Of a stretch of 64,000 bases of DNA, positions 3,686 to 37,219 are shown piece by piece; position 1 is the first letter of the stretch; every line of letters begins with the position of its first letter. The DNA lies in assembly GCF_003149145.1 (NCBI RefSeq), contig NZ_QGDQ01000009.1:62001-126000 (forward strand). The letters are read 5' to 3'. The position numbers were made by a program, and so were the translations under genes. The notes beneath the pieces were generated by a model. That model was not told where the DNA came from. It searched no databases and saw only the letters and a list, made by a program, of their open reading frames with translations. The stretch comes from Quadrisphaera granulorum. GTDB lineage: Bacteria; Actinomycetota; Actinomycetes; Actinomycetales; Quadrisphaeraceae.

Positions 3686-3760
<75 letters not shown>

Positions 3761-4881: not shown

Positions 4882-5024
4882 TCGAGTGCTCCCCCGAGCG
4901 GCATCGCTCGCCTTCCTGGCCGCCGCGATCTCTGCCAGGCTTCGGGGGCGTGAGCTTCGACGGCACCATCAGGTCGAGGGAGAGCACGTCAGCGCGAGCG
5001 TTCGGCGGTGGCCGCGGAGTCACC

Positions 5025-5364
5025 GTGCGAGCCCGGCTTCGCAGGTCGGTGCTCTTCACCTCGGTCGTCGTCGTGGCCAGCCATGTCAACTACATCGCTG
5101 GTACGCCCGCTGCCGGGGCCAGCTGGAGAGACGGCGAGCTGGTCTACGGCGTCGAGACGGTCGAACCCATCGGTCGCCAGCCGGCGAGACTGGCCGATGT
5201 CGCGACCTTCGTCGCGTCGCTCTCCGTGTTGCTCGTCATGTGGGAGGGACGGCTTCCGGGTGTGGTTCCTGGACTCATCCATGAGCGCCTGGACGAGGGG
5301 ACAGCGGGGAGGCTGCGGCTACCCATCGGCCGGCGCTGTTGCCCAACCAGAAGGGAGCGGATGG
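5025..5364 (+). other. Weak open frame in the 4849-5364 gap, possible small membrane protein
   Basis: The 515-base gap between the reductase pseudogene and the kinase gene holds one frame that could code: from GTG 5025 it reads VRARLRRSVLFTSVVVVASH, a plausible membrane segment, and later ARLADVATFVASLSVLLVMW, a second one. The frame runs past the kinase start without a clear end, its codon use is less GC-biased than its neighbours, and no family is recognised. It may be a remnant of a two-helix membrane protein or not a gene at all. Confidence 0.2.
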
Positions 5365-6288
5365 ATGATCGAGGTGCGGCCGACAGTGGCGATCCGGCGC
5401 CTAGAGTGGGTTTTGGAAGGGCTCGACAGCAAGCCTGGTTGGGGTGCCGACGCTGCCGTCGTGATGGCTCCCGCCTTCGCCGATGTCGTGCCGCCGGAGA
5501 TGTTCGTCAACGCCTACCAGCGGCGCGCCGAGCGCTTCGCCCCGGTCACCGTCGTTGCTCTGGAGGCTGACGGCGATTACAGCGCACGGGCCAGCGTGGC
5601 CGACGTGGAGGGTGCGATCTCGGTTGTGCACTGTCACGTCGAGGAAGCCGAACCGCACCGGATCACCCGTACGTGGATGCTCGGATATGTCCCCGACGGC
5701 CTCACGGATCGGCTTCCGGTCGTCTTTGGCGTCGATGATGTCCCGAGTGCGCGTGCCGTCGACGGTGGCTCCCGCCTGGTGGTGATGACCGGGGTGCCCG
5801 GCAGTGGCAAGAGCACCATCGCCGACGAGGTGGGGCGCGTCCTGGGTGACCCGGTCTTCGCGATGGACTGGCTGCTTGGCGCCTTGACGCCGTTCGGCGG
5901 TCACCACCTGAAGCACACCGGCGAGATTGCGGACGAGCTGCTGACCACGCTGGCCTTCCGGCAGCTGGTTGCCGGGCAGTCCTCGATCTTGGACGCCCCC
6001 GCCGAGGACGCCGCCACACGGGAGCGCTGGATCAGCATGGCGAAGGCGGCCGGAGCCCGGCTGCGCGTCGTGCACTGCGTGTGCACCGACCTCGAACTGC
6101 ACCGCTCCAGGGTTGAGGGACGTCGACGAGGCATCCCCGGTTGGTACGACGCCGGGGACTGGGGTGATGTGACGACGCGCATGGCCGCCTTCACCCCATG
6201 GCCCGCCGCCACGCTCACCCTGGACACGAGCCGGCCGCTGGCAGACTGCGTCGCTGACGCCGTCGCGTTCATCACCCGAGGCACGTAG
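5365..6288 (+). CDS. P-loop kinase with an LpqF/ORF12-like N-terminal domain
   Basis: A 307-residue protein in two parts. Residues about 135-307 are an AAA_33-type P-loop kinase: VVMTGVPGSGKSTIADEVG is the Walker A loop, FAMDWLLGAL gives a likely base, SILDAPAEDAATRERW resembles the strand-3 region, and RRRGIPGWYD the lid. Residues about 5-110 (IRRLEWVLEGL, MAPAFADVVPPEMFVNAYQR, then a beta-rich part ending EPHRITRTWMLGY) resemble the cystatin-like domain in front of LpqF/ORF12 serine hydrolases; this is recognition by eye. ATG 5365 follows AAGGGAG at good spacing. Substrate unknown. It stands alone between two decayed promoter copies. Confidence 0.65.
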   Translation: MIEVRPTVAIRRLEWVLEGLDSKPGWGADAAVVMAPAFADVVPPEMFVNAYQRRAERFAPVTVVALEADGDYSARASVADVEGAISVVHCHVEEAEPHRITRTWMLGYVPDGLTDRLPVVFGVDDVPSARAVDGGSRLVVMTGVPGSGKSTIADEVGRVLGDPVFAMDWLLGALTPFGGHHLKHTGEIADELLTTLAFRQLVAGQSSILDAPAEDAATRERWISMAKAAGARLRVVHCVCTDLELHRSRVEGRRRGIPGWYDAGDWGDVTTRMAAFTPWPAATLTLDTSRPLADCVADAVAFITRGT

Positions 6289-6500: not shown

Positions 6501-7178
6501 TCAGCCGGGCAGAGGGGTCATGTCCCAGGTGTCTTCGTTGCGAACGTAGGAGAGCCTCCGGCTCGCGGCGGCGGGGTTGGACACCCAGAAGGTCAGCCGG
6601 TGGGGTGTCACGGCGAAGCCCGCCCACGAGTCGGGGGGCGTGAACGCGGGCGCGTCTGGTCCGCCGTGGGCCTCGAGGAACGCTGCCCACCGGGCTCGCC
6701 GCTCCCCGAGGGGCAGGCTCGCGAAGTCCGGTGTGTTCTGCCAGGCCAGCTGCTGCAGGTACGGCGACCGCAGCCGGTACGCCGCGTCGGCCTCCTCCTG
6801 GTTGCAACGGGCGGCGGTGCCGTGGACGACGAGCTGCCGCGTGAACCCGGGCCAGAGCAGCGTCAGCGCGACCCGGGGGTCCCGCGCCAGCTCGGCCGCC
6901 TTGGCGCTCTGCGCGTCGGTGTGGAAGTGGAATCGCTGACCGTCGAAGTCGCTGAGCATCGTCGTGCGAGCGTCGGGGGCTCCGTCGAGGCCGGTCGTCG
7001 AGACGGTCATGAGCATCCGGTCCTCGCCGGGCCCCGGCAGCCAGGCCGCGGCCAGCGCGAGGGGGTCCAACCACGGGGTGTCGGACTGGACGGGATCGGT
7101 GTCGTGGTCGATGACGGGCACCGGCAGGACGCCGACGACGACGGGTGCCAGCGGAGAGCTGGGCTCGGGAGGCGTCAC
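6501..7178 (-). CDS. Pyridoxamine 5'-phosphate oxidase-like flavoprotein
   Basis: A 225-residue protein with the split-barrel FMN fold of the PdxH family: PDARTTMLSDFDGQRFHFHTDAQSAKAAELARDPRVALTLLW covers the usual R-x-V-L-K...F-Y-T-N...S-x-K...L-x-x-N-P segment, RQLVVHGTAARC follows, and a C-terminal SYVRNEDTWDMTPLPG stands where PdxH has its R-L-H-D-R tail. That tail is altered (no R-L-H), so true pyridoxine oxidase activity is doubtful and an FMN-dependent oxidoreductase role in the local pathway is plausible. GTG 7178 overlaps the stop of the creatininase-like gene (GTGA), making it the last gene of a three-gene operon. Confidence 0.75.
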   Translation of the reverse strand: MTPPEPSSPLAPVVVGVLPVPVIDHDTDPVQSDTPWLDPLALAAAWLPGPGEDRMLMTVSTTGLDGAPDARTTMLSDFDGQRFHFHTDAQSAKAAELARDPRVALTLLWPGFTRQLVVHGTAARCNQEEADAAYRLRSPYLQQLAWQNTPDFASLPLGERRARWAAFLEAHGGPDAPAFTPPDSWAGFAVTPHRLTFWVSNPAAASRRLSYVRNEDTWDMTPLPG

Positions 7179-7990
7179 CCGAACACGAACCCTTCGATCT
7201 CGGCCAGCGCCTCGCACACGAAGTCGACGCCCCGGGCGAACAGCTCCGCCCCGTACTCGGCGTTGGCGCCGGTCGCGTCACCGATGACCCCTTCGGGGCC
7301 GAAGTCGTCGCTGGTCCACCCGAACATCACGGGCTTGCCGTTGAAACCGATGTGCTTGAGCCCCGCGATGTGCTCCGGCACGTTGCGCGCCGGCATCTCC
7401 GGAGCGACGAGGTGCGGCGCCAGGTGCATGACCACCGACGTTTCCGCGAACCCCCCGTGGATGCCCTGACCCCTCTCGTCAGGACGGCCGTCGAGCCCGT
7501 CACCGGGGCCGCCGACGCCGGCGGGCATCGAGAAGGTCCGCAGGCCGAAGCGCCGCCGCAGCTCACGGTTGGCCCACCCGAGGAGCATGACGTTGCCGCC
7601 GTGCCCGTTGATGAAGACCACCGTGCGCGCGGGTGTCGCCGCGATGGAGCGGCCCAGGTCGATCAGGACGTCGAGGACCGTCGTCCCCTCCAGCCACAGC
7701 GTGCCGGGCGCCCAGTGGTGCTCGTCGGACTTCGCACAGGTGATGGTCGGCAGGAGCCAGGCGTCGATGCCCTGCGCGGCCACGCGCTCGACCGCCGCCG
7801 TCGCCACCGCTTCGGCCACCAGGGCGTCGGTGCGCAGGGGCAGGTGCGGCCCGTGGTGCTCGATCGCCCCGATCGGCACCACGGCGATCGACCGCTCGGT
7901 CAGGAGCGAGGTGAGCGCGGGACCGGACAGGTCCGCCCAGAGACGCGACGCGGGGGCGAACGGGCGGGCCGTCACCGGACTGTTCGTCAT
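7175..7990 (-). CDS. Creatininase family amidohydrolase
   Basis: A 271-residue member of the creatininase/creatinine amidohydrolase family, metal-dependent enzymes that open cyclic amides or remove amide-linked groups. The metal-binding signature VVPIGAIEHHGPHLPLRTDAL is near residue 40 (Glu, His, Asp ligands), VFINGHGGNVMLL carries the second His region, and HGGFAETSVVMHLAPHLV the late Glu. Members act on creatinine, in riboflavin/F420 precursor hydrolysis and in mycofactocin maturation; none of the partner genes for the latter two are here. Start ATG 7990 overlaps the stop of the FAD oxidase gene, and the stop overlaps the flavoprotein start, so the three genes are tightly coupled. Confidence 0.85.
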   Translation of the reverse strand: MTNSPVTARPFAPASRLWADLSGPALTSLLTERSIAVVPIGAIEHHGPHLPLRTDALVAEAVATAAVERVAAQGIDAWLLPTITCAKSDEHHWAPGTLWLEGTTVLDVLIDLGRSIAATPARTVVFINGHGGNVMLLGWANRELRRRFGLRTFSMPAGVGGPGDGLDGRPDERGQGIHGGFAETSVVMHLAPHLVAPEMPARNVPEHIAGLKHIGFNGKPVMFGWTSDDFGPEGVIGDATGANAEYGAELFARGVDFVCEALAEIEGFVFG

Positions 7991-9354
7991 CGGATCGCGC
8001 CCTTGGTCGGACCCGCGTAGGAGGCGTTGAGCTTGCCGGGGTTGAGCAGCCCGTGCGGGTCGGTGGTGCGGGCCAGCTCCACCGTTTCCGGGAGCCGGAA
8101 GTCGACGTTCCACTGGTGCGGGCTGTGCACTCCCACCCCCAGCGCGGTCAGCGCCTCGATGCCGTCAGCCACCTGCTCGGGGCTCTCGTAGACCCCCGCG
8201 AGCATGCCGATGGGGTACGTCGAGCTGGCTTCGAGGTGCAGGTGGGCGCCCGGGTAGACGGCGACCACCTCGTCGTAGCGGTCGATGAGCGCATCACCGC
8301 CGACCTCGACGTGGAAGTAGACGCCCGGCTCGGACTTCTGCAGCCACTCGATGGGGTGGTTGTAGCTGAGCACCGAGATGGCAGCGGAGACCTGCGGCCC
8401 TTCGCGGACGTCCTCGACGCGCCCGCCGCCGTCGCTGATGATCCGGCTGGCCTCCTCGACGAGGGCGACGTCGAGGATGGCGCGCAGCGAGCTGCGGCCC
8501 TCGGGGAAGGCGGGGTCGGGCGGGAGCTGCGCCGAGACCTGCGGGTCGTCGGCGGAGACCAGGCGTGGGTGCGGTCGCAGGGCGCCCAGCTGCCGCAGGA
8601 CGGTCCTCGCCCCCGCGAAGTCGGGGAAGGAGGCGTACACACCGCGCCACTCCTGCAGGGGTTCGAGCCGCACGGTGGCCCGGGCGATGATCCCCGCCGT
8701 GCCGTAGTTGTGCACGTAGCCGAGGGCCTCGTCCCCCTCGACGTGGACGAGCGCGCCGCCGGAGGCCGGGGTGACGACGTCCAATGCGACGACGAACCCC
8801 TGGTGGTTGGCCCCGTGCGCGATCGACCCGGTGCCGCCGGAACCGCCGGAGAGGAAGCCCCCGATGCTGGAGTGCACCGTGGAGGGGTACATCCACAGCT
8901 GCTGACCGTGCTGCCGGGCTGCCTGCTCGAGCGTGGCCATCGGCGCGCCGGCCTCGGCGGTGATCCACCCGTCGCCGACCGCCACCACGGCGCGCGCCCG
9001 GGACATGTCGAGCACCAGGCCGCCGGGCATGGGGATCGCCTGGCCGTAGTTACCGGTGCCCTTGCCGCGCGGGGTGATGGGGGCTCCGTGGGCGACAGCC
9101 AGCCGCACGACGTCGGCGATCTGCTCCGCCGTCGTCGGGAACGCCACGAGGTCGGCCACGCCGAGCGGCAGCTGCTCGGCGATGATCGGCGACATCCGGG
9201 CGCCGTCGACGGACGCCTTCTCCCGCTGGCGCAGGTCACTGGAGACACCGCGCGGTCCGAGCAGGGCAGCGAGGTCCGCCTCGAGCGCCGCGTAGTCGGG
9301 AGCTGGTGTGCCCGTGACGTGCTCGAGCACGTCAGGTGAGGTCGCGCGGTTCAT
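7987..9354 (-). CDS. FAD-linked oxidase (GlcD / vanillyl-alcohol oxidase family)
   Basis: A 455-residue flavoprotein. The FAD-binding part is clear: AVAHGAPITPRGKGTGNYGQAIPMPGGLVLDMSR, then GWITAEAGAPMATLEQAARQHGQQLWMYPS and IGGFLSGGSGGTGSIAHGANHQGFVVALDVVT. The end (LARTTDPHGLLNPGKLNASYAG) is the typical C-terminal D-P-x-x-L-x-N-P-G-K motif. These enzymes oxidise alpha-hydroxy acids, alcohols or amines; no Fe-S partner subunit is beside it. The first gene of the leftward operon, with GAAAGG before the ATG, 34 bases from the divergent regulator gene that probably controls it. Confidence 0.85.
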   Translation of the reverse strand: MNRATSPDVLEHVTGTPAPDYAALEADLAALLGPRGVSSDLRQREKASVDGARMSPIIAEQLPLGVADLVAFPTTAEQIADVVRLAVAHGAPITPRGKGTGNYGQAIPMPGGLVLDMSRARAVVAVGDGWITAEAGAPMATLEQAARQHGQQLWMYPSTVHSSIGGFLSGGSGGTGSIAHGANHQGFVVALDVVTPASGGALVHVEGDEALGYVHNYGTAGIIARATVRLEPLQEWRGVYASFPDFAGARTVLRQLGALRPHPRLVSADDPQVSAQLPPDPAFPEGRSSLRAILDVALVEEASRIISDGGGRVEDVREGPQVSAAISVLSYNHPIEWLQKSEPGVYFHVEVGGDALIDRYDEVVAVYPGAHLHLEASSTYPIGMLAGVYESPEQVADGIEALTALGVGVHSPHQWNVDFRLPETVELARTTDPHGLLNPGKLNASYAGPTKGAIR

Positions 9355-9388
9355 GGGCAGTGCCTTTCGGGTGTCGTAGCCTCGCCGA

Positions 9389-10036
9389 ATGACGGACGTC
9401 GTCTCTGCGGGTCAACTCGCCTCCGGATCGGAGTCGATGGAGGAGCCGGGGGCGTCCGCCGCTGAGGACGGACCCACCTCGGCCGCTCGCGCCCTGGGGG
9501 CTCGGATCCGCGCGCTCCGCCAGGACCGCGGAATGACGCTGGCCCAGGTGGCGGCCCAGGCGGAGCTGTCGCACTCGTTCCTCAGCCAGGTCGAGCGTGG
9601 GCTCGAGCGGATGAGCATGACGTCGCTGTTCCGCGTGGCCCAGGCTCTGGGGACGACGCAGCAGGCGCTCCTCACCGACGACGTCGCCGCGGGCCCCCGG
9701 GCGTCCGGCGCGTTCCACGTCTTCCGTGCGAACGAGCCGACACCTCTCGACGCGGGCGGCAACCCCGCGCGGGTGCTCGCGCGTGACCACCCGCGCTTCG
9801 TGCCCATGCTCACGTCGGGCACCTTCACCGAAGACCTGTGGTGGGTGCACGACGAGGACGAGTTTGTCTTCGTGGTCGACGGTCGGCTGATCATGATGCT
9901 GGGAGACGAGGAGTTCGTCATGGAGAAGGGTGACGCCGTCTACTACCAGGGGGGCGTACGGCACCGCTGGCGCACGCAGCCGGGCGAGACGGCGAGCGTG
10001 CTCAGCGTCAAGGAGGGCGGCGTCTTCTGCCGGTGA
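9389..10036 (+). CDS. XRE-family transcriptional regulator with cupin sensor domain
   Basis: A 215-residue regulator. Residues about 32-90 are a lambda-repressor-like helix-turn-helix (LGARIRALRQDRGMTLAQVAAQAELSHSFLSQVERGLERMSMTSLFRVAQAL); residues about 140-215 form a cupin (FTEDLWWVHDEDEFVFVVDGRLIMML, EKGDAVYYQGGVRHRWRTQPGE). Such proteins (PuuR/SutR type) sense small amines or acids in the cupin and repress catabolic genes. It is divergent from the FAD oxidase operon with 34 bases between the two starts and convergent with the MetF-like gene, so it is the likely regulator of the island. The first 25 residues are a disordered Ser/Glu-rich extension. Confidence 0.88.
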   Translation: MTDVVSAGQLASGSESMEEPGASAAEDGPTSAARALGARIRALRQDRGMTLAQVAAQAELSHSFLSQVERGLERMSMTSLFRVAQALGTTQQALLTDDVAAGPRASGAFHVFRANEPTPLDAGGNPARVLARDHPRFVPMLTSGTFTEDLWWVHDEDEFVFVVDGRLIMMLGDEEFVMEKGDAVYYQGGVRHRWRTQPGETASVLSVKEGGVFCR

Positions 10037-10065
10037 CATCGCTGATCGTGACGCCGACGCCGTCG

Positions 10066-11124
10066 TCACGAGCCTCCTCCGAGCTCTCGCGCCACGGTGG
10101 CCAGCGCGGTGGCATAGGCCACCTCGTGCCCCCGGCGTACGCCGCCGGCCACCACCACTCCGCCGACCTCGCCGCTGTCGAGCAGCGCGCTCCCGTGCGC
10201 CACGGCGAGCCGGACGCCCTCCGCGCGGACGTCGCGGGCCGCGAAGAGCCGGTCGAGGAAGCCGGTGGTGAGCTTGGCGGCGTGGAAGGACGCGAGCAGC
10301 TCGGCCCCTTCTCTGTCGACGACGAGGGGAACTCCGGGCAGAACGGGCACGGTGGCGCCGGCGTCTCGGCACCGCGCCACGAAGGCGAGCTCGTCGTCGA
10401 CGTCTCCGGCGTACTGGGTGAAGCACAGCTGGCCTCCCGCGCGCTGCTTCTGCGCGACGCGGGCGCCCCGCGAGGCAACGTCGGGCGCAGCGGGTGACTC
10501 CGCGAAGGAGGCGAACAGCCCGAGAGCTCGGGCGCGCGGCAGCATCGTCGTCGATTCGAGGTCGAACACCGGCCGCGCGTCGGGGCGGTCGCCGGTGCGT
10601 GTGTGGTCACCGGTGACGCAGTGCACGCCCGCCGCGCCGAGGGCGGCCAGGGAGGCGAGTTCGGCGTCGGTCGCCGTCCGGTTGCGATCCCGGGACGTGA
10701 CCCCCATCCACACGCGCAGGCCGGTCGCCGCGATGAGAGCCGCCCGGTAGGACGGCGGGAACTGCACGCGCGCACGTCCCGCGTCACCGGACAGGACCGC
10801 GTCGACACTCCCGGCCAGTTCCGCGGCCGTGGGAGCGACGGTCTGCGAGCTCATGGCCCGCGCCGGGATGCCGGTGAGGACCAGAGGACGACGGCGGGCG
10901 ATCGCCTGCAGCTCGCGGCCGGCTCGGGTCGCCACGTCCTTGCCGCCGCCCGCGGCGCTCGGCGTCCAGGGCACCGGGAGACTGCGGCGCAGGAACACGC
11001 ACGTGGTGGGGGCCACCTCGCACGTGTCGTCGGGGTTCACCCCGCCGCACGGCCCGTAGGTCATGGACTTGGGACAGTCGGGTGCTCGCGCCAGCAGCGG
11101 AGCAGATGTCACGGGAGTGCTCAC
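10066..11124 (-). CDS. MetF-like protein with N-terminal GPCGG cysteine motif (copy 1)
   Basis: A 352-residue protein. Residues 1-45 carry CPKSMTYGPCGGV followed by two more cysteines (CEV, TTC), the pattern of the MetV/methylenetetrahydrofolate reductase C-terminal domain that binds zinc or an Fe-S cluster. The remainder is a MetF-type TIM barrel: LRVWMGVTSRDRNRTATDAELASLAALGAAGVHCVTGD matches the family's T-C-R-D-R-N and V-x-x-V-T-G-D motifs, and KQRAGGQLCFTQY the conserved K-x-x-A-G-A-D-F-x-x-T-Q strand. It probably handles 5,10-methylene- or 5-methyl-tetrahydrofolate. GTG 11124 overlaps the stop of the second copy. Last gene of the six-gene operon. Confidence 0.78.
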   Translation of the reverse strand: MSTPVTSAPLLARAPDCPKSMTYGPCGGVNPDDTCEVAPTTCVFLRRSLPVPWTPSAAGGGKDVATRAGRELQAIARRRPLVLTGIPARAMSSQTVAPTAAELAGSVDAVLSGDAGRARVQFPPSYRAALIAATGLRVWMGVTSRDRNRTATDAELASLAALGAAGVHCVTGDHTRTGDRPDARPVFDLESTTMLPRARALGLFASFAESPAAPDVASRGARVAQKQRAGGQLCFTQYAGDVDDELAFVARCRDAGATVPVLPGVPLVVDREGAELLASFHAAKLTTGFLDRLFAARDVRAEGVRLAVAHGSALLDSGEVGGVVVAGGVRRGHEVAYATALATVARELGGGS

Positions 11125-12221
11125 GCGGCGGGCTCCACCCGTGGCGGGGGCGGTACCCGCTCGAGGTGCTCCCGCAGCTGCGTCGCCATCCTGACGAGGA
11201 CGTCGACCGCGCCCAGACCCTGTGTACCCAGACCCGTCGGGTCGGTGTCGTCGACGAGAGCCGAGAGGTGAACACCGCTCACCCCCGGTGCGGACAGCAC
11301 CAGCTGGGCCCACGCGGTGGCCACGTGGACGGCCGCCGCGTCAGTGGTCACCACCGGCACCGACACGAGCACCGGGAGCGCAGCACCGGTCGCGGCGAGC
11401 GCGTCGGTGAACGTCGCGAGGTCGGCCAGGTCACCGTTGAGGTCCACGATGACGAGCTCCGCCCCGGCGCTGGCCTTGAGCGCGAGGCGGGAGGGACGGC
11501 AGGACGACGGGGGAGCGGCCGGACGCTCGACGACGGCGACGAACAGCCCCGCGCGGCGGGCCAGAGCCGCCAGACGCGGCGAGTCGAGGTCGAAGACGGG
11601 CTCCGTCATCGTCGCCGTCGTCGTCCCGATCCTGGAGGTGCCGGGTAGCCCGGCCGAGGACGAATGGTCACCCGTGACGGCTAGGACCCCCGCGACGCCG
11701 ATGTCGGCGAGTGCGGCGAGCTCGCCCTCCAACGCCACGCGGTTGCGGTCTCGGCAGGTCAGAGCCGACAGGACCGTCGCCCCGGTGCCGGCCAGGAGGA
11801 GGGCGGTGTGCGAGGGGCTGAGGGTGGTCCCCAGCCCCTCGCTCGTCACCACGGCGCTCATGGCGCTCAGCCTCGACCCCGCCTCGGCGATCAGCCCGGG
11901 GTCGCGGGACCGCACAGGGAGGCCGGCGGTGATGACCCCGCCGGTCGTCACCGCCTCGGCGAACGACGTTGCTGCCGCACCACGGGGAATGGTCGCGAGG
12001 GCGTCACCGCTCTCCCGAGCGCTCGCGGGCGCCGACACCAGCTCGGGAGCGAACCCGAGATCGCGCAGGTGGTCCGCCGCGGCGGCGAACGAGCACGTCA
12101 GACCTGGCACTTCACAGCCTCCGTCTGCTCGGACGCCGCCGCACGGGCCGTAGACCATGCGCTTGGGGCAGCCTGCAGCGGCTTGGTGCAGCCCCGGGCG
12201 CAGTCTCGGGTGGGTCGTCAC
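11121..12221 (-). CDS. MetF-like protein with N-terminal GPCGG cysteine motif (copy 2, diverged)
   Basis: A 366-residue paralogue of the next gene. The N-terminus has CPKRMVYGPCGGV and two further cysteines (CEV, LTC). The barrel keeps VLSALTCRDRNRVALEGELAALADIGVAGVLAVTGDH, better conserved than in the other copy, but where the family has K-x-x-A-G-A-D-F-x-x-T-Q it reads KASAGAELVIVDLNGD, so the T-Q pair is lost. One working and one altered copy suggests a heteromeric enzyme or a change of substrate. GTG 12221 overlaps the stop of the ABC substrate-binding protein gene; the two MetF-like genes overlap by four bases. Confidence 0.76.
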   Translation of the reverse strand: MTTHPRLRPGLHQAAAGCPKRMVYGPCGGVRADGGCEVPGLTCSFAAAADHLRDLGFAPELVSAPASARESGDALATIPRGAAATSFAEAVTTGGVITAGLPVRSRDPGLIAEAGSRLSAMSAVVTSEGLGTTLSPSHTALLLAGTGATVLSALTCRDRNRVALEGELAALADIGVAGVLAVTGDHSSSAGLPGTSRIGTTTATMTEPVFDLDSPRLAALARRAGLFVAVVERPAAPPSSCRPSRLALKASAGAELVIVDLNGDLADLATFTDALAATGAALPVLVSVPVVTTDAAAVHVATAWAQLVLSAPGVSGVHLSALVDDTDPTGLGTQGLGAVDVLVRMATQLREHLERVPPPPRVEPAA

Positions 12222-13468
12222 GGCATCTTGATGGAGGGGTCGATGAACTCGTTGGTGTAGAGCGCGGAGGGGTCGATCTTCGAGGCGGCGTCCTGCGTCA
12301 TGCTCCCGGAGGACACGAGGAACGGCGTGAAGTCCTTGACGATCGCGGACATCCGGTCGGGGTCGAACTGGCCGAAGACACCGGACGCCGGGTCGTTGAC
12401 GACGATGCCGAGCTTCTTCTGCTGCTCGACCGAGAAGTTCGCGACGCCCGCGGAGTAGGTCCACCCCGTGTCGTACTTGGTGACCAGGTCAACGATGACG
12501 GCGTTGGCGTGCGCGGGGGAGCTCAGGTAGTCGATCTGCGACTGCTGCATGATCGGCACGAGCTTCTTCAGGCAGTCTGCCTTGTCGGTGACGTCGGCCT
12601 TCCGCACCGCGAGGGGCTCGGGGTAGATGGTGTAGCCGACCTCGGAGAGGAGCTGGTAGCTGACGTCCTTGCCCCACTGCGAGATCTCGTTCTTGTAGAT
12701 GTAGGGCTCGGCGGTGGCGAAGCCCTGCTGGAGGATCTTCGGGTCCGAGACGAACCGTTGCGGAGTGCCCTCGTAGCTGGTGTCGATCTGCGCCTGGGTG
12801 ATGATCCCCTGCGACAGCAGCAGGTTCGGGAGGACGTCTCCGGAGGTGACCACCGGGTCACCGCCGGCTGCGGCTTCCTTGATGGTCTTCGCGCCGGGGT
12901 GGCTGGCCGGGTCCCACATGAGGATCTGGGGGCTGTAGGTCATCTGCGAGGCGACGGCCACGGTCGGCTGGTCGGCGTCGGCGACGATGGCGGCGTCGGT
13001 GTTGACGGCGCCGATCAAGATGTCGGGGTCGAGGTACATGAGCGCCGGCACCGGCTGGAAGTTGGTGTTGGGACCACCGGGGCGGACCTCGATCTTCACG
13101 CCCGTGTCGGTGCCGTTGACGACGAGCGGTCCCGTGACGGACTTCTTGTCCGTGTCGACCGTGTACCCGTCGCCGACGAGGTTGTACATCGCGCCGTGCT
13201 CGGCCTCGGGCTGCCAATCCTGCTGCATGACGATGGTGGACGGGCAGACGCCGGAGAGGTCGAGCGGACCGCCCTTCTCCGCGGGAGTAGCGGTACTCGT
13301 CGTCGACGGTGCGGCCTCGGAACTGCTGTCGGAGCTACCGCATCCCGCCACGGCGAGCATGCCGATGGTGAGGGCGCTGGCGGCCAGCACGCGCGCGGTC
13401 GGCCGGCGGGTCGGCGTGCGGGTCGGCGTGCGGGTCGGCAGGGGAGTGGTGTGGCTGGTCGGTGACAC
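12218..13468 (-). CDS. ABC transporter substrate-binding lipoprotein (NitT/TauT, NMT1-like)
   Basis: A 416-residue exported lipoprotein. The N-terminus has an arginine-rich n-region, a hydrophobic stretch and the lipobox LAVAGC (Cys near residue 43). The mature part begins with STIVMQQDWQPEAEHGAMYN, like NMT1/THI5-type binding proteins for pyrimidine-like or sulfonate/nitrate-like ligands, and later has SGDVLPNLLLSQGI and GFATAEPYIYKNEISQWG. GTG 13468 is preceded by AGGAGG. It lies in the same operon as the permease and ATPase, 146 bases downstream of the permease. The ligand is not known; two amidohydrolases in the island suggest a nitrogen heterocycle. Confidence 0.83.
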   Translation of the reverse strand: MSPTSHTTPLPTRTPTRTPTRRPTARVLAASALTIGMLAVAGCGSSDSSSEAAPSTTSTATPAEKGGPLDLSGVCPSTIVMQQDWQPEAEHGAMYNLVGDGYTVDTDKKSVTGPLVVNGTDTGVKIEVRPGGPNTNFQPVPALMYLDPDILIGAVNTDAAIVADADQPTVAVASQMTYSPQILMWDPASHPGAKTIKEAAAGGDPVVTSGDVLPNLLLSQGIITQAQIDTSYEGTPQRFVSDPKILQQGFATAEPYIYKNEISQWGKDVSYQLLSEVGYTIYPEPLAVRKADVTDKADCLKKLVPIMQQSQIDYLSSPAHANAVIVDLVTKYDTGWTYSAGVANFSVEQQKKLGIVVNDPASGVFGQFDPDRMSAIVKDFTPFLVSSGSMTQDAASKIDPSALYTNEFIDPSIKMP

Positions 13469-13614
13469 GGATGTCCTCCTGGAGGGGTCGCGCGACGTGG
13501 GTCCGACGGCGCGGCGGGCAGGCGTCAGGTGCGGATGCTGGTGCCGGTAGGGAAGGCTGGTACCGGGAGCGGGGGGCTCGCGCGACGGGCGAGCGGGCTC
13601 AGGGACGTGTCGTG

Positions 13615-14520
13615 TCAGCGGGTGGAGACGCCGAACAGGCGGCCGACGACGAACCTGTCGAGCGCGGCGAAGATCGAGAAGACGACGACGCCGAACAGGG
13701 CGGTGAAGATGATCGCCAGGAACAGTGGCTCCATGTTGAGCCGCAGCGTGTAGGTGCGCAGCAACCCGCCGATGCCCTGGCTGCCCTGCTGGAAGAAGAA
13801 GTCTCCGACGATGGCGCCGATCACGGCCAGGCCGGCGGACTGGCGCAGACCCGTGAAGATCGACGGGATGGCCGCGGGCAGCATGAGCTTGGTCATCCGC
13901 TGCCGCTGCGTGGCCTTCTGCAGGGTGAAGAGGTCATGGGCGGCCGCCGTCGCGGACTGCAGACCGAAGAGCGTGTTCGAGATCATCGGGAAGACCGCGA
14001 TGATGACGCAGACCACCACGCGTGCGGGCGGGCCGTAGCCCATCCAGATCCCGATGAGCGGCGTCAGCGCGAGGATGGGGATCGTCTGGAGGATGACGGC
14101 GTAGGGGTAGAGGATCTTCTCCGCGAGCTTCCACTGGGACATCACGAGCGCCCAGGTCATGCCGATCGCCACGGCGATCGTGAGGCCGATGAGTGCGACG
14201 GTGATGGTCTGCACCAGTGCCGCGAGCATGGGAGCGATCACCAGCGTGTTGCCGACCGTCTCGGCCAGCACCTGGTGCGGGGGCGGCAGGAGGAAGCGGC
14301 GGCTCTCGCTGAGGAAGACGTAGGAGACGACGTACCAGATCGCGACGATGCCCAGCAGCGCCGCGACGATCGGGGCGCTGCGGCCCCAGACGGTGCCGGC
14401 GGCTGCCCCTGCTCGACCGCCCGAGGGACGCACAGCCGTGGTGGCGGCGCGTGGGGGCGTGGTGGCCGCGGAGCTGCTGGCTTGCGCCGAGGGGGCGCCG
14501 ACGGCCGTGTCGTGGCTCAT
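13615..14520 (-). CDS. ABC transporter permease (NitT/TauT type)
   Basis: A 301-residue inner-membrane permease with six predicted helices, the first at about residues 50-70 (APIVAALLGIVAIWYVVSYV). The cytoplasmic coupling loop is visible as MTKLMLPAAIPSIFTGLRQSAGLAVIGAIV, the E-A-A-like motif of SsuC/TauC proteins. A Ser/Ala/Pro-rich 45-residue cytoplasmic tail precedes the first helix. ATG 14520 overlaps the ATPase stop (ATGA). It works with the neighbouring ATPase and lipoprotein as one importer. Confidence 0.87.
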   Translation of the reverse strand: MSHDTAVGAPSAQASSSAATTPPRAATTAVRPSGGRAGAAAGTVWGRSAPIVAALLGIVAIWYVVSYVFLSESRRFLLPPPHQVLAETVGNTLVIAPMLAALVQTITVALIGLTIAVAIGMTWALVMSQWKLAEKILYPYAVILQTIPILALTPLIGIWMGYGPPARVVVCVIIAVFPMISNTLFGLQSATAAAHDLFTLQKATQRQRMTKLMLPAAIPSIFTGLRQSAGLAVIGAIVGDFFFQQGSQGIGGLLRTYTLRLNMEPLFLAIIFTALFGVVVFSIFAALDRFVVGRLFGVSTR

Positions 14521-15317
14521 GAGTGGGCCTCCAACGCGTGCGACAGACGACCGACGATGCGACCGAACTCCGGCTCGTACCGCAGCTCGGGGGAGCGCGG
14601 GTACGACCACGGCACCTCGATGTCGTCGACGATCCGCCCGGGACGACCGCTCATGACCAGCACGCGGCTGGACAGGTAGACCGCCTCGGAGATCGAGTGC
14701 GTGATGAACATCGCGGCGAACCCCTTGAGCTGGAACAGCCGCTGCAGCTCCGTCTGCATCTTGAGGCGGGTGATCTCGTCCAGGGCCCCGAACGGCTCGT
14801 CGAAGAGCGCCAGCTGAGGCTCGGCGACGAGCGCACGGGCGATCGACACGCGCATCCGCATGCCGCCGGACAGGGAGCGGGGGTGCTGGTCCTCGAATCC
14901 CGCCAGACCCACCAGTTCGAGCGCCTCGGCGGCCCGTCGACGGCGCTCGGCGGCGGCGACGCCGGCCAGCTCGCCCACCAGCTCGACGTTGCGCCGGGCC
15001 GTGCGCCACTCCAGGAGGGTGGCCTCCTGGAAGACGAAGCTCGTGGTGGAGGCGCGGACGTCGACCTCGCCCTCGGTAGCCCCGTCGAGGCCCGCCGCGA
15101 GCCGCAGCAGTGTCGACTTGCCGCATCCGGAGGGGCCGACCACGGAGACGAACTCGCCGGCGCGGACGTCGATCGAGACGTCCTCCAGGGCTCGCGTTCC
15201 CGTGGGGAAGACCTTGGCGACGCCACGGAAGGCGAGGGTCGGCGTGGCCGGGTCGCTGCTGCTCGTGGTCTCGGGGGGAGGGCCTGTGACCTTCGGCGCC
15301 GCGGTTCCGGTGCTCAC
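14517..15317 (-). CDS. ABC transporter ATP-binding protein (SsuB/TauB type)
   Basis: A 266-residue ATPase. Walker A is VVGPSGCGKSTLLRLAAGL, the Q-loop is FVFQEATLLEW, the signature is SLSGGMRMRVSIARAL, Walker B is LALFDEPFGALDEITR and the switch His is in FITHSISEAVYLSSRV, the last being typical of the nitrate/sulfonate/taurine group. The first 28 residues are a disordered extension. GTG 15317 overlaps the amidohydrolase stop, so enzyme and transporter are translationally coupled. Confidence 0.9.
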   Translation of the reverse strand: MSTGTAAPKVTGPPPETTSSSDPATPTLAFRGVAKVFPTGTRALEDVSIDVRAGEFVSVVGPSGCGKSTLLRLAAGLDGATEGEVDVRASTTSFVFQEATLLEWRTARRNVELVGELAGVAAAERRRRAAEALELVGLAGFEDQHPRSLSGGMRMRVSIARALVAEPQLALFDEPFGALDEITRLKMQTELQRLFQLKGFAAMFITHSISEAVYLSSRVLVMSGRPGRIVDDIEVPWSYPRSPELRYEPEFGRIVGRLSHALEAHS

Positions 15318-16594
15318 TGCATGGCTCCTTCGGCGGTGGGGACGGACGACGGGTCCGACGGGCTGTGGGGATCAAGCACGCTGCTCACGACGCGGCGGCG
15401 AACGGCGACCACCCGGCCCGCGCGGATGACGACGCGGTCAGGAGCGCGCTCGGCCAGGGCCTCGGCGGTGTGGGCGGCGCGCACGAGGACGACGTCGGCG
15501 ACGTCGCCCACCAGGCCACGTGCGGGCGGCAGACCGAAGGTGGCTCGGCCGCCGTGGGAGCTCACGTGCCAGGCCTCGGCGGGCGTGAGGTGGCCGGCCG
15601 TGACGAGCTCGCAGGCCACGTCGACCATGTCGGCGTTGCCGAGGGGGTTGAACGGGTCCTGCACGTTGTCGCCGCCCGCGGCGAGCGTGACACCAGCCTC
15701 CATGATCTCGCGCAGCGGAGGGATGCCGCGCGGGGTGGCGACGGGGTGCTGCCAGCCCTGCAGGTAGAGGTTGGTCAGCGGGTTGGTGATGATCGAGACG
15801 CCGGCTGCGGCCACCGCCGCGAGGGTCCGGGCGCGTGTCGCGTCGTCCTGCGTGGACAGGCTGACGCAGTGCCCCGCTGACCGGATGCGGCCGGCGGGCC
15901 AGTGGCGTGTCCGTTCGGCCAGCTGGAGCAGACCGACCGAGGAGGCGTCGAGCGTCTCGTCGGTGTGGAGGTCGATGCCGAGCCCGAACTCCTCCGCGAA
16001 CGCGGCGCACCTCTCCAGGTCGGCGGCGGGGTCGTCGGCGAGGTGCGGGAACCCGCCGATGAGGTCTGGCCCGAGGGGGATGCCGGCACGGCCCAGGTCG
16101 TCCGGGCCGTCCCAGGGGCCGGGCGCCATGACGACCTGGAGGTCGACGACGCCCGCGAACTCGGTGCGCAGCTCCGCCAGCGCGCGGACTCCGCGGAGCG
16201 GATCATCGCCGAGGTGAAAGTTCGTGTGGGAGCGCACTGCGGTGACGCCGGAGTGGAGAGCAGCCAGGAGGTGGCGGCGAGCGCCGGCCTTGATGGCCCG
16301 GTACGTGTGGTGCTCGCCGTGCTCGGCCCAGCAGGCGATGGCGTCCTCGAGAGGCCCTTCCGGCTCGCCGAAGGCAGTCCAGGTGTAGTCCTTGTCGAGG
16401 TGGGCGTGCAGGTCGGCCAGGGGCGGCAGAGCCACCCAATCTGTCGCATCGACCGTCAGGCCAGACGGATCGGTCTCGGCCTCGGCCGCCACGCTTCCTT
16501 GCGAGAAGCAGAGCGTCTCCCCGACGTCACCGGCCGGCGTCAGCCCCGTGAGGGAGCTGATCCGGTGGCCCGGCGCGAGGAGTTCTGCGTGCAT
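15314..16594 (-). CDS. Amidohydrolase of the cytosine deaminase / isopropylammelide hydrolase group
   Basis: A 426-residue metal-dependent amidohydrolase. LPPLADLHAHLDKDYTW provides the HxH pair, SHTNFHLGD and GLGIDLHTDETLDASS the next His and Glu-like region, IRSAGHCVSL another His, and LAAGGDNVQDPFNPLGNADMVDVA the late Asp with the D-N-x-x-D-P-F-x-P-x-G signature of cytosine deaminases. The usual reaction is hydrolytic removal of an amino or alkylamino group from a pyrimidine- or triazine-like ring. ATG 16594 has GAGGAGG upstream. First gene of the leftward operon with the ABC importer and the two MetF-like genes, which suggests that the imported compound is its substrate. Confidence 0.82.
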   Translation of the reverse strand: MHAELLAPGHRISSLTGLTPAGDVGETLCFSQGSVAAEAETDPSGLTVDATDWVALPPLADLHAHLDKDYTWTAFGEPEGPLEDAIACWAEHGEHHTYRAIKAGARRHLLAALHSGVTAVRSHTNFHLGDDPLRGVRALAELRTEFAGVVDLQVVMAPGPWDGPDDLGRAGIPLGPDLIGGFPHLADDPAADLERCAAFAEEFGLGIDLHTDETLDASSVGLLQLAERTRHWPAGRIRSAGHCVSLSTQDDATRARTLAAVAAAGVSIITNPLTNLYLQGWQHPVATPRGIPPLREIMEAGVTLAAGGDNVQDPFNPLGNADMVDVACELVTAGHLTPAEAWHVSSHGGRATFGLPPARGLVGDVADVVLVRAAHTAEALAERAPDRVVIRAGRVVAVRRRVVSSVLDPHSPSDPSSVPTAEGAMQ

Positions 16595-16649
16595 CCCGTG
16601 GACCTCCTCGCGGTCGCCTCGTGGTCTTGCGAACGGTTCTGAGTGATGG

Positions 16650-16675
16650 AACGTTGTTGGCGTGACCAACATCGC
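16650..16675. promoter_or_regulatory. Candidate operator shared by the two amidohydrolase genes, copy 1
   Basis: ACGTTGTTGGCGTGACCA (16652-16669) lies 58-75 bases before the amidohydrolase start and recurs with one change upstream of the second amidohydrolase gene. Here it is part of a short palindrome, TGTTGG-CGTGA-CCAACA (16655-16671). It also sits in the 215-base divergent space before the VanB-type reductase gene. The binding protein is unknown. Confidence 0.5.
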
Positions 16676-16809
16676 GTGGGTGGAGTACACGTCCGGTGCG
16701 TTTCCCGCCAGACCCGTGCTCGTTGCCGTTGCGTTAAATCGGGCTGGGTGCCGTCGTCGTCCTGACCCCGTGGACACCACGTCCGCCCGCGAATCGTGAG
16801 AGTGGGGCC

Positions 16810-17814
16810 ATGAGCTTCTTCAGCGACGTCGAGCGCGACCTCGTGGTCGCGGCGCGCACCGTGGTCGCCGACGGGGTGGTTGCGCTCGACCTCGTCGCCC
16901 ACAACGGGCGTGACCTGCCCGCGTGGGCACCTGGCGCTCACGTCGACCTCGTCCTCGCCGACGGCCGCGCACCCGGCACCGAGCGGGTGGAACGGCAGTA
17001 CTCGCTGTGTGGCGACCTCGCGGATCGCTCGACGTGGCGCGTGGCGGTGCTCCGGGAGGACGGCGGACGCGGCGGCTCCGTGCGTGTGCACCACGAGGTG
17101 CGCGAAGGCCAGCGCCTGCGCGTGCGAGGCCCCCGCAATCACTTCACCTGCCAGCTGCTCCCCGGAGCTGCGTACCGCTTCCTGGCGGGGGGCATCGGCA
17201 TCACCGCGGTCCTGCCGATGGCGCGCGCCGCCACGGCTGCCGGCGTCGACTGGACGCTCGACTACGCGGGGCGCTCGATCTCGACGATGGCGTTCGCCGA
17301 CGATGCGCTGGCCCTCGATGACGGCACCGGACGCGTGCGGTTGCACCCCGCTGACCAGGGAGCCCGGCTCGACGTTGCCGCGCTGGTCAAGGGTGCCGTG
17401 GACCACGGCGCCGGCGTCTACGCGTGCGGCCCCGCGCGTCTGCTGACCGCGTTGGAGGAGGCTTTCACGGCCGAGGGCCGTCCCGAGTCGCTGCACGTCG
17501 AGCGGTTCGAGGCCGTGGAGTACGGCGAGCCGGTGTGGGCGGAGCCCTTCGAGGTGGAGCTCGCGACGACGGGCGACGTCGTCGTCGTCTCACCCGGGCA
17601 GTCGGTGCTGGAGGCGATCGAGGAGCAGAGCCCCGCGGCCGTGGTGCTGTCGAGCTGTCGGCGCGGCACCTGCGGCATGTGCGAGGTGCCGGTGCTGGAG
17701 GGGGAGATCGAGCACCGTGACTCGGTGCTGACGCCGGTGGAACGGGAGGAGAGCGCCGTGATGATGGCGTGCGTCTCGCGTGCTGCGGGTCCGCGGATCG
17801 TCCTCGATGTCTGA
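16810..17814 (+). CDS. PDR/VanB family ferredoxin-type oxidoreductase
   Basis: A 334-residue reductase built as in vanillate demethylase reductase VanB: an FMN domain (VERQYSLCGD, WAPGAHVDLVL), a pyridine nucleotide domain (YRFLAGGIGITAVLPMARA, GAGVYACGPARLLTAL) and a C-terminal plant-type [2Fe-2S] domain with SSCRRGTCGMCEVPVLEGEIEHRDSVLT and a last Cys in MMACVSRA. Such proteins pass electrons from NAD(P)H to a Rieske oxygenase that demethylates or hydroxylates. No oxygenase gene is in the window, so the partner must be elsewhere or not of the Rieske type. Divergent from the amidohydrolase-ABC operon and convergent with the second amidohydrolase gene (17 bases between stops). Confidence 0.88.
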   Translation: MSFFSDVERDLVVAARTVVADGVVALDLVAHNGRDLPAWAPGAHVDLVLADGRAPGTERVERQYSLCGDLADRSTWRVAVLREDGGRGGSVRVHHEVREGQRLRVRGPRNHFTCQLLPGAAYRFLAGGIGITAVLPMARAATAAGVDWTLDYAGRSISTMAFADDALALDDGTGRVRLHPADQGARLDVAALVKGAVDHGAGVYACGPARLLTALEEAFTAEGRPESLHVERFEAVEYGEPVWAEPFEVELATTGDVVVVSPGQSVLEAIEEQSPAAVVLSSCRRGTCGMCEVPVLEGEIEHRDSVLTPVEREESAVMMACVSRAAGPRIVLDV

Positions 17815-17831
17815 CTCGTGCGCGGGCGGCC

Positions 17832-19223
17832 TCAGTGGCCGGTGCGGGCGCGCAGGGCTGCGGTCAGGGCGGTTTCATCACCGGTGACGAGCCGATAGTC
17901 GCGAACGACGACGCGCCCGCCGACCACCACGTGCCGCGGGCGGCGCCCCGGGTTGGCCCACAGCAGCCCCGCCACCGGGTCGGCGACCCCCGCGTCGGCC
18001 ACGCCTGAGACGTCCCAGACGCACGCGTCGCCCGCTGCACCCGGCGAGAGGACACCCAGTTCGGCTCGTCCCAGCCCGGCTGCGCCGCCGGAGGTGGCCA
18101 TCGCGAGGACGTCGCGCGCAGGCAGTTGCGGACCGACCAGGCCCGAGACCTGCATCGCGAGGCGCGCATCGGCGAGGAGGTGCCCGGCGTCGTTCGACCC
18201 TCCGCCCGAGGTTCCGAGGCCGACGACGACGCCCGCCTCGCGCAGCCGCCGCACGGGGGCGATGCCCCAGCCCATCGGCACGTCACAGCCCGGGGCGTGT
18301 GTCGCCGTGACACCTGCGGCGGCCAGCCGCGTGATCTCCTCCTCGGTGACGTCGCACAGGTGCGCGACGGTGACATCGGGCGCGAGCCAGCCCCAGTCCT
18401 CCAGTAGGTCGAGGGGGCGGCGGCCGTAGCGGGCCAGGGCGATCTCGGTGTCCACCTGCTCGTTCGCCTGGGTCCGCCGTCGCAGTCCGTACCGCCGGGC
18501 GACGTCGCCGAGGGCGCGGAAGGTGGTTTCGGAGTCGGAGTGCACACCGGCCGGGCCGACCGCGAGCTGCAGCATCCCGTCAGTGCTTGTGCCGCCCGGT
18601 GCCGCGGGGCTGGACGTTGATCGGGTTGATCCGGTTGATCGCAGCAGGGATGTGACGATCGCCTCGGCGCTCGCGGCGGCCACCTCAGGGGCGTCCCGCG
18701 CGGAGCCGCGCACGAACACCAGCCGGGCTCCGAGGGACGCCGCCGCATCGGCGATGGCCCGGGCGATCGCGACGGTGTCACCGACCGGGTCACGGCTCGC
18801 CGAGGGGTCAGGCCAGTTGAGCTGGTGGTCGGCCACCGTCGTCACCCCGCACAGCAGCGACTCGGCCAGGCCGACACCGGCGGTCGCGGCGACGAGCGAG
18901 GCGTCGATCCCCGCGGAGGCGTACGCGGCAGCCATGGCGGGCAGCCAGTCGCGCATCGGCACCCCACGGGTGCCCGGCAGGGTCCGGAACCCCGACTGCA
19001 GGAGGTGGTGGTGGGCGTTGATGAGCCCCGGCGTGACGATGCAGCCCGCCGCGTCGAGCACGTCGTGTGACCCGGGCCCAGTTCCGCTCGCGCCCGGTCC
19101 GGGCGCGGGTCCAGCGACCCGGCCGTCTGCGCCTATCACCAGGTCCCCGGTGCGGTCTCGCTCGGGGTCGTCGAACCGTTCCACCACCAGGGATGCCGAC
19201 GTGATGGTGAGCGAGCGCGTCAT
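17832..19223 (-). CDS. Amidohydrolase of the 8-oxoguanine deaminase/AtzB-TrzN group, metal site altered
   Basis: A 463-residue amidohydrolase. PGLINAHHHLLQSGFRTLPG is the strand-1 HxH, GVTTVADHQLNWPD follows, VTVAHLCDVTEEEI holds the strand-6 His and THAPGCDVPMGWGIAPVRRLREAGVVVGLG is close to the 8-oxoguanine deaminase T-H-C-P-x-S-N-x-x-L-G-x-G-I-A-P-V pattern. Two usual ligands are not seen: the strand-5 His (family H-x-H-L-A-E) is replaced in RRRTQANEQ, and the strand-8 Asp (G-x-D-G-S-x-S-N-D) reads GTSGGGSND. It may use a different metal set or substrate. It is transcribed alone with a copy of the shared upstream motif. A Ser/Thr/Gly-rich insert is near residue 200. Confidence 0.77.
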   Translation of the reverse strand: MTRSLTITSASLVVERFDDPERDRTGDLVIGADGRVAGPAPGPGASGTGPGSHDVLDAAGCIVTPGLINAHHHLLQSGFRTLPGTRGVPMRDWLPAMAAAYASAGIDASLVAATAGVGLAESLLCGVTTVADHQLNWPDPSASRDPVGDTVAIARAIADAAASLGARLVFVRGSARDAPEVAAASAEAIVTSLLRSTGSTRSTSSPAAPGGTSTDGMLQLAVGPAGVHSDSETTFRALGDVARRYGLRRRTQANEQVDTEIALARYGRRPLDLLEDWGWLAPDVTVAHLCDVTEEEITRLAAAGVTATHAPGCDVPMGWGIAPVRRLREAGVVVGLGTSGGGSNDAGHLLADARLAMQVSGLVGPQLPARDVLAMATSGGAAGLGRAELGVLSPGAAGDACVWDVSGVADAGVADPVAGLLWANPGRRPRHVVVGGRVVVRDYRLVTGDETALTAALRARTGH

Positions 19224-37186: not shown

Positions 37187-37219
37187 CGGGCTCAGGACGA
37201 CGACGAGGACGAGCACCCG

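Follow-up and report, generated by a model that had tools for sequence, protein, structure and literature searches.

A patchily inherited gene module of Quadrisphaera granulorum as a candidate catabolic regulon for an imported amino-N-heterocycle

The window analysed here is a stretch of 64,000 nucleotides of Quadrisphaera granulorum DNA (contig NZ_QGDQ01000009.1, G000:C9:62001-126000 in our numbering; host genome 4.88 Mb). The element in question is an island of 12 genes near its start (Table 1), which encodes a NitT/TauT-type ATP-binding cassette (ABC) importer with its substrate-binding protein (SBP), a cytosine-deaminase-like amidohydrolase (CDA), a TrzN-like amidohydrolase, a creatininase-family hydrolase, a FAD-dependent oxidase/dehydrogenase (FADox), a PNPOx-like flavoprotein, a VanB-type reductase, an XRE-cupin regulator and two proteins resembling methylenetetrahydrofolate reductase (MTHFR), MetF1 and MetF2. 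On balance, we favour the reading that these genes make up an inducible catabolic regulon of patchy inheritance, whose substrate is an amino-N-heterocycle taken up from outside; a ring of the pyrimidine type is the most likely one, for example the thiamin pyrimidine hydroxymethylpyrimidine (HMP) or a close relative. Four observations underlie this reading: conservation of the gene content, a recurring operator motif, the fold predicted for SBP and the genomic link between MetF2 and the module. The genes named in a preliminary description of this DNA are all present where it placed them, and its suggestion that the set is undescribed agrees with the openly licensed literature, in which literal matching gave no recognised description of the gene set among the matches listed.

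FADox, a creatininase-family hydrolase and a NitT/TauT-type importer recur together over several phyla, and in Actinobacteria, Proteobacteria and Firmicutes CDA joins this core. The actinobacterial set comprised 40 loci of at least 18 kb with a FADox match, and gene counts were made on 38 of them, with presence scored by identity thresholds that we set; L126 and L194, which qualify by length and FADox, and seven loci shorter than 18 kb were left out. CDA, SBP, permease and ATPase are present in all 38 loci, the creatininase-like gene in 37, the XRE-cupin gene in 32, the PNPOx gene in 29, the TrzN-like gene in 25, the VanB-type gene in 23 and MetF2 in 11. As SBP was the bait for 21 of the 38, its presence in those loci is by construction, and since 14 of the 36 loci fetched with SBP are without a true FADox (a fifteenth, L094, ends at a contig edge), SBP alone is no marker of the module. 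Both L126 and L194 are without CDA and SBP, and the creatininase-like gene is in L194 only. This neighbourhood search of other genomes bears out the earlier proposal of a linked catabolic island with importer and amidohydrolases, which recurs elsewhere, with the folate-type protein in some cases.

A plasmid protein search with SBP led to a Nitratireductor region, and more loci came from queries with FADox, CDA and the creatininase-like protein. Genes for a creatininase family protein, an amidohydrolase or cytosine deaminase and a FAD-binding oxidoreductase were found in all six annotated regions (Nitratireductor, Klebsiella, Mameliella, Rhizobium, a Comamonadaceae strain and Ruegeria), with NitT/TauT-type ABC genes inside the cluster in five of the six; the SBP of Ruegeria is of another type. 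The Klebsiella locus also carries a PDR/VanB reductase and a second amidohydrolase. Genome contigs were scanned widely with a FADox profile, the first row of its alignment being the window FADox, and among the best 80 of 482 relatives the core with CDA was found in Microbacterium, Agreia, Curtobacterium, Rhodococcus, Nocardioides, Paenibacillus, Cohnella and Rhizobium. Within the same 80, Klenkia has the core with CDA but without the creatininase-like gene, and several others, chiefly cyanobacterial, have FADox without an importer.

In a sample of 396 genomes of the window's order, SBP was matched in 35 (E<=1e-8), FADox in 27 (E<=1e-40) and both in 26. Neither protein was matched in the five other genomes from the window's genus, and the island is therefore patchy. 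The window's SBP, permease and ATPase are closest to family f86 of the order; its FADox is closest to that of Klenkia (70%), followed by families f86 and f81 (67-68%), and its creatininase-like and TrzN-like proteins are closest to other sources (67% and 76%), in both cases among the matches listed. By these sequence comparisons the window island looks like a mosaic. A chance grouping of unrelated neighbours was considered and is ruled out by the conservation and by the operator.

The putative operator is a palindrome that recurs among the CDA upstream regions of 25 loci, from which the pattern TGTTGRYNNNRYCAACA was built. A total of 43 loci (882 kb, window included) contain 24 exact occurrences of it, in 24 of the 43, and 39 sites at up to one mismatch, the latter in 30 of the 43 with the window counted, compared with means of 0.0 and 0.4, respectively, in 20 runs of simulated sequence with the same dinucleotides. 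As the pattern was derived from 25 promoters, a fairer test is given by the 18 loci that had no part in defining it; ten of these carry an exact site and 12 a site at up to one mismatch, although several share a genus. In seven of the 18, the exact site lies where the flavin reductase gene of a flavin reductase/acetamidase cluster begins; a second amidohydrolase gene reads the opposite way in five of those seven, with MetF2 after it in L063 and L065. In L061 the exact site lies between the VanB and FADox genes. In the window, operon A and the VanB-type gene are separated by a region with an exact site; the genome has no other exact copy, and it holds one further, one-mismatch site on another contig. 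The XRE-cupin protein is the candidate binder of the palindrome. In L089 another palindrome, ATGTTCCTCTCAGGAACAT, lies upstream of CDA, the usual operator being absent there; it is possibly a co-evolved operator variant.

The preliminary description had arranged the genes in three operons and a regulator gene with overlapping starts and stops. With gene starts chosen by an overlap criterion, four-base overlaps were indeed found in three chains (FADox-creatininase-PNPOx, CDA-ATPase-permease and SBP-MetF1-MetF2), but 146 bases separate the permease from SBP, and the VanB-type and TrzN-like genes are each single and mutually convergent. The layout is therefore one of two operons and three single genes, the XRE-cupin regulator included. 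No consensus promoters or terminators were found between 6000 and 19800 of the window. A tRNA-Ala (GGC) gene lies at 3686-3760, about 2.7 kb from the PNPOx end of the island, with an AAA_33-type open reading frame (5008-6288) between it and the PNPOx gene.

Table 1. Features of the island, in window coordinates, with the matches that define them and their frequency in 38 actinobacterial module loci
Feature	Position	Strand	Matches and remarks
PNPOx-like flavoprotein, last gene of operon B	6501..7178	-	PF01243 3.8e-15; pdxH model 98.8/180 bits (below cutoff); 29/38 module loci
Creatininase-family metallohydrolase, operon B	7175..7990	-	PF02633 3e-59; 37/38 loci
FADox, first gene of operon B	7987..9354	-	PF01565 (FAD_binding_4); PDB 6v42 5e-44
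XRE-cupin regulator, divergent from FADox	9389..10036	+	HTH_31 and Cupin_2; 32/38 loci
MetF2, cysteine-motif N-terminus and MTHFR-like barrel	10066..11124	-	PF02219 6.6e-11, PF12225
MetF1, divergent MetF2 paralogue	11121..12221	-	PF02219 8.5e-8; long branch in tree
SBP, lipoprotein-like substrate-binding protein	12218..13468	-	no Pfam family at E<=0.001; structure model
NitT/TauT-type permease	13615..14520	-	PF00528; SaoP/ntrB/SsuC models, below cutoff
NitT/TauT-type ATPase	14517..15317	-	PF00005
CDA, first gene of operon A	15314..16594	-	NF005759 190/403 bits; PDB 1k6w 1.5e-37; 38/38 loci
Palindromic putative operator TGTTGGCGTGACCAACA	16655..16671	.	60 bases upstream of CDA start codon; sole exact genome copy
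PDR/VanB-type ferredoxin reductase	16810..17814	+	Pfam: Fer2 alone passes; 23/38 loci
TrzN/8-oxoguanine-deaminase-like amidohydrolase	17832..19223	-	PRK08203 253.6/532 bits; TrzN 3ls9 2.9e-58

For the ligand, the SBP sequence gave no Pfam family (E<=0.001), NMT1 included, and no PDB relative at E<=1. Its structure model, with a mean predicted local distance difference test score (pLDDT) of 88.3, is closest to ThiY 3ix1, a binder of N-formyl-aminopyrimidine (Z 26.8, root-mean-square deviation (rmsd) 3.4, 292 residues), followed by the thiamin-bound SBP 4nmy (Z 26.0) and the Thi5 entries (Z 21.0-23.9), compared with CmpA (Z 20.7), SsuA (20.3), NrtA (19.7) and TauA (18.8). SBP belongs with the NMT1/THI5-type binding proteins by fold, and not by Pfam NMT1 match. 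The modelled fold favours a pyrimidine ligand. It is highly improbable that the importer serves a sulfonate or other small anion and that the enzymes are unrelated neighbours. The permease is of the NitT/TauT type, and in one distant locus, L194, there is a monooxygenase of the luciferase-like family, to which sulfonate monooxygenases also belong; however, the importer and hydrolases are kept together in many loci, luciferase-like and TauD-like families are absent from the Pfam matches of the 12 island genes, and the L194 enzyme has no SsuD match (E<=1e-10). A sulfonate importer, which the preliminary description had named as one finding that would overturn its proposal, is also disfavoured by SBP, which fits ThiY and the thiamin-bound SBP (Z 26.8 and 26.0) above SsuA and TauA (Z at most 20.3). 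L194 carries importer genes, an isochorismatase and a creatininase-like gene; its monooxygenase (L194:6852-8138) sits between the importer ATPase and FADox, matches neither a RutA nor a SsuD model at E<=1e-10, and could be a ring-opening or desulfonating enzyme in that locus.

Among the enzymes, CDA groups with cytosine deaminases, scoring below their cutoff (NF005759, 190.3 vs 403 bits), and also matches N-isopropylammelide hydrolases. The TrzN-like protein is below the cutoff for 8-oxoguanine deaminase (NF006055, PRK08203; 253.6 vs 532 bits) and Gln252 and Ser339 are kept in 11 of the 12 aligned proteins, in columns that we take to be metal-site columns; the residues there are His and Asp in the Klebsiella relative, and His and Thr in TrzN. 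The creatininase-like protein belongs to the PF02633 superfamily, yet it is nearest to MftE (TIGR03964, 128.4/172 bits) and then to creatininase (TIGR04448, 73.2/235 bits), missing both cutoffs and therewith the equivalog cutoff for creatininase (EC 3.5.2.10). The nearest solved relatives of FADox are PDB 6v42 and 6v43 (6v42 5e-44). Literal matching in the openly licensed literature found no paper with either entry, and on TrzN ancestry it returned unrelated papers only. The VanB-type protein has PaaE as its best NCBIfam match (73/421 bits) and shares 35% identity with the PDR/VanB reductase annotated in the Klebsiella locus.

The main alternative concerns the ring itself. The substrate may be a purine in oxidised or methylated form (8-oxoguanine-like or methylxanthine-like), with the module feeding the uric acid pathway, and we regard this as possible, though clearly less probable than a pyrimidine. 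The TrzN-like gene is closest to 8-oxoguanine deaminase and TrzN; XdhC genes are present in eight module loci (all eight confirmed by Pfam) and uricase in five of the 38, with a xanthine dehydrogenase beside the module in L081 and an OHCU decarboxylase in L078; and uricase is enriched in FADox genomes (19 of 27 vs 117 of 369 others, p 8e-5, uncorrected for kinship). However, uricase was not matched in eight of the 27 genomes with FADox, the uricase and xanthine dehydrogenase of the window's own genome are on a different contig, C16, away from the island, and the SBP fold favours pyrimidine binders.

HMP would fit the SBP fold, the 4-amino type of deaminase, the alcohol-oxidising types of FAD and short-chain dehydrogenase/reductase (SDR) enzymes, and the acetamidase/formamidase of some relatives. 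An SDR gene is present in nine of the 38 module loci. Seven loci (six of family f86, one of f81) have matches to an AtzH-type amidase, acetamidase/formamidase, flavin reductase and a metallo-beta-lactamase fold protein, the accessory domains being named from L065 alone; six of the seven also have an isochorismatase and four a cyclodeaminase-domain gene, and L102 has amidase and acetamidase matches as well. The accessory isochorismatase is nearest to RutB (8bkd 1.7e-29), below the cutoffs for RutB (127.5/378 bits) and biuret hydrolase (114/370 bits). RidA is another of the genes added in relatives.

MetF1 and MetF2 both have an N-terminal CPKxMxYGPCGGV motif followed by an MTHFR-like barrel domain. 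The MetF2 model (mean pLDDT 73) forms a TIM barrel that matches Thermus thermophilus MTHFR (Z 24.9, rmsd 3.0, 259 residues) and MSMEG_6649 (Z 18.9). The position of the catalytic Glu was placed by sequence motif, with the E. coli motif as reference, and by model range rather than by a superposed ligand; both proteins have Gly there, and the module relatives have Asp or Gly. This Glu is common to MTHFR, Mfr and Mer (E28 in E. coli, E9 in Mfr), according to PMC11094777. The MetF1 operon position was seen in the window only, among the loci compared.

MetF2 was matched in 19 of the 396 genomes at E<=1e-25, and the stricter set consists of the 12 with a copy of the window's clade; the seven dropped, whose copies fall in another clade of the tree, are five genomes of genus g271 (all with FADox) and G630 and G699 (both without). 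All 12 carry FADox, which is in 27 of the 396 (p 7e-16); without dropping, the overlap is 17 of 19 (p 5e-21), and by genus it is five of five among 11 of 109 (p 4e-6), all three values being uncorrected for kinship. The link is one-sided, as 15 of the 27 FADox genomes are without module-type MetF2. Since MetF2 stands away from the FADox locus in G450 and G573 (one genus) and about 18 kb off, beside a PNPOx gene, in G702, the link does not rest on adjacency alone. It is improbable that MetF1 and MetF2 are housekeeping methylene-tetrahydrofolate (THF) reductases that stand here by accident. The genome has no typical MetF, its PF02219 matches at cutoff being the window pair and one weak match beside a GcvT-domain gene on contig C7, which would suit a housekeeping role, but that role is difficult to reconcile with the FADox link, with the absence of MetF2 from all five other same-genus genomes in the sample and with the missing Glu.

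The island pair may instead be THF-dependent acceptors of a methyl, hydroxymethyl or formaldehyde unit derived from the ring in a pyrimidine-type pathway, possibly with the PNPOx-like flavoprotein; this we consider rather unlikely, and since the Glu is missing, any such uptake could not use the known glutamate. A different route would start with the import of creatinine or a methylated cyclic ureide, go on through deamination and ring opening, and hand the methyl group to THF via MetF1 and MetF2; it is a poor candidate. Creatininase-family, cytosine-deaminase-like and MetF-like genes are all in the island, creatinine deaminase is a member of the cytosine deaminase family, and the Nitratireductor region adds a hydantoinase/oxoprolinase and a Rieske oxygenase. 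However, the creatininase model reaches 73 of 235 bits, MetF2 is in only 11 of the 38 loci, and sarcosine oxidase, creatinase, hydantoinase, methyltransferase and Rieske families are absent from the Pfam matches of the 12 island genes. The preliminary description had proposed a methylated nitrogen heterocycle or a cyclic ureide, with creatinine among the candidate ligands; neither a methylated substrate, creatinine or a cyclic ureide nor the methyl transfer to THF is supported by these results and the Gly at the catalytic position of the pair.

Several further MetF-like genes were observed. On C7, at about 89.7-96.7 kb (L098, L202), the GcvT-domain gene overlaps the MTHFR-like gene with the weak PF02219 match, and a VanA-type Rieske oxygenase, a VanB-like reductase, an aldehyde dehydrogenase and an Amidohydro_2 gene lie nearby; this region looks like an O-demethylation locus for lignin monomers. 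The genome has other Rieske genes as well (nine matches). The island VanB was considered as a partner of the genome's VanA, which is less likely, as another VanB-like gene adjoins VanA at C7:94652. Members of another MetF-like clade (L033, L034, L182, L184-L186, L192) have a class I methyltransferase-like gene as their neighbour; they belong to two genomes from a same-class family (Mycobacterium-like, as far as can be inferred), four from one large-genome genus of the order and G699, and the methyltransferase domain was tested in L033 and L182. Among the copies dropped from the stricter MetF2 set, those of G699 and of four of the five g271 loci adjoin a gene of one family, whose g271 member has a methyltransferase domain. 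L188 (12620-13855) holds a second, divergent MetF-like gene that adjoins an NMT1/THI5-type binding protein and permease, a further case of MetF paired with a NitT/TauT-like importer. In a variant in L076 and L077, whose domains were tested in L077, the MetF-like gene has a Glu in the motif of its first strand (VIAEING); its neighbours are a gene of the phosphotriesterase family, a TRZ-type amidohydrolase, GntR and a NitT/TauT importer, and L076 also has a creatininase-like gene. Elsewhere in the window, at 35531-42080, an SBP_bac_5-type binding protein gene and a BPD permease gene are followed by a ROK-family gene.

A number of results weigh against the pyrimidine regulon reading. The SBP fold matches are at 10-16% identity, the lowest Thi5 entry is level with CmpA, and the common fold does not settle the ligand. 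Rfam searches at threshold found one tRNA and no thiamin pyrophosphate (TPP) riboswitch or metabolite element in the whole window, and one tRNA and no metabolite element in seven module loci. None of the 11 island proteins scanned (all but the ATPase) reached a curated NCBIfam cutoff. Acidobacteria, Verrucomicrobia and some others among the best 80 of 482 relatives have FADox, the creatininase-like gene and the importer with no CDA match, and these loci, together with the actinobacterial L194, show that the deaminase is not universal. The purine genes that flank the module in some relatives (XdhC, xanthine dehydrogenase, uricase) also fit a purine. For the operator, six of the 18 loci outside the defining set have no site, and the sites of L120 are at no clear module promoter. 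A reversed control pattern gives an equal number of genome matches at up to one mismatch, so that only the exact, placed site counts as evidence, and with two mismatches allowed the window has two matches, a number reached by at least eight of 100 shuffles. The earlier idea that the operons are co-regulated holds in so far as module loci have a recurring operator in common; in the window, however, the site precedes operon A and the VanB-type gene and not the FADox operon, and because the window's FADox promoter has no site, and none lies in the 34 bases that separate FADox from the regulator, common control of operon B has no support.

If the island does serve a pyrimidine-type ring, the lipoprotein SBP and the NitT/TauT ABC transporter would bring the compound in, CDA would take off a ring amino group, and the FAD oxidase (plus the SDR in some relatives) could oxidise an alcohol or amine on a side chain. 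Opening of the ring or displacement of a substituent might then fall to the creatininase-like and TrzN-like metallohydrolases, with the nitrogen released as ammonia, in some relatives perhaps via the AtzH-type amidase, RutB-like isochorismatase, acetamidase/formamidase and RidA. The MetF-like proteins may bind folate and handle a one-carbon unit, and the XRE-cupin protein would sense a pathway compound and bind TGTTGRYNNNRYCAACA.

A multi-phylum module with a recurring actinobacterial operator probably marks a common environmental nitrogen compound. Its genes are currently annotated merely as creatininase family, cytosine deaminase or FAD-binding oxidoreductase, and the identity of the substrate would allow many genomes to be re-annotated and would reveal the role of Glu-less MTHFR-fold proteins; it may also shed light on what TrzN-like and AtzC-like enzymes do in nature.

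Compared with known systems, the module is like the Rut pathway (E. coli RutA-G) in that some relatives pair a RutB-like isochorismatase, RidA and flavin reductase with the cytosine-deaminase-like gene, and L194 has a luciferase-like monooxygenase with an isochorismatase; it differs in that RutA, RutB, RutC and RutF families are absent from the Pfam matches of the window's 12 island genes and in having the FADox, creatininase-like and TrzN-like enzymes in addition. With ThiXYZ and NMT1/THI5 importers it has the SBP fold in common, although the identity is low, no NMT1 match or riboswitch was found, and the module SBP is linked to degradative rather than salvage enzymes. Of the s-triazine enzymes TrzN and AtzC, TrzN aligns with the 17832-19223 protein over most of its length, but it differs at Gln252 and Ser339, and the island has no triazine context. 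PMC12625717 mentions an archaeal genome with a creatininase-like gene close to biuH, and we do not take that gene for this module.

MTHFR and the flavin-free Mfr have the barrel fold of the MetF2 model, whereas the island pair is without the Glu of E28/E9, has the extra cysteine motif and is tied to a catabolic module. The LigM-MetF system of THF-dependent demethylation also sets a MetF-like gene beside a catabolic demethylase; the host genome has a GcvT/MTHFR-like pair on C7, and a distant MetF2 relative adjoins a GcvT gene in L035; the window's island, in contrast, is without a GcvT-type gene. Against this background, what is new here is the operator palindrome, an SBP fold nearest to thiamin-pyrimidine binders, and the co-occurrence of MetF2 with FADox.

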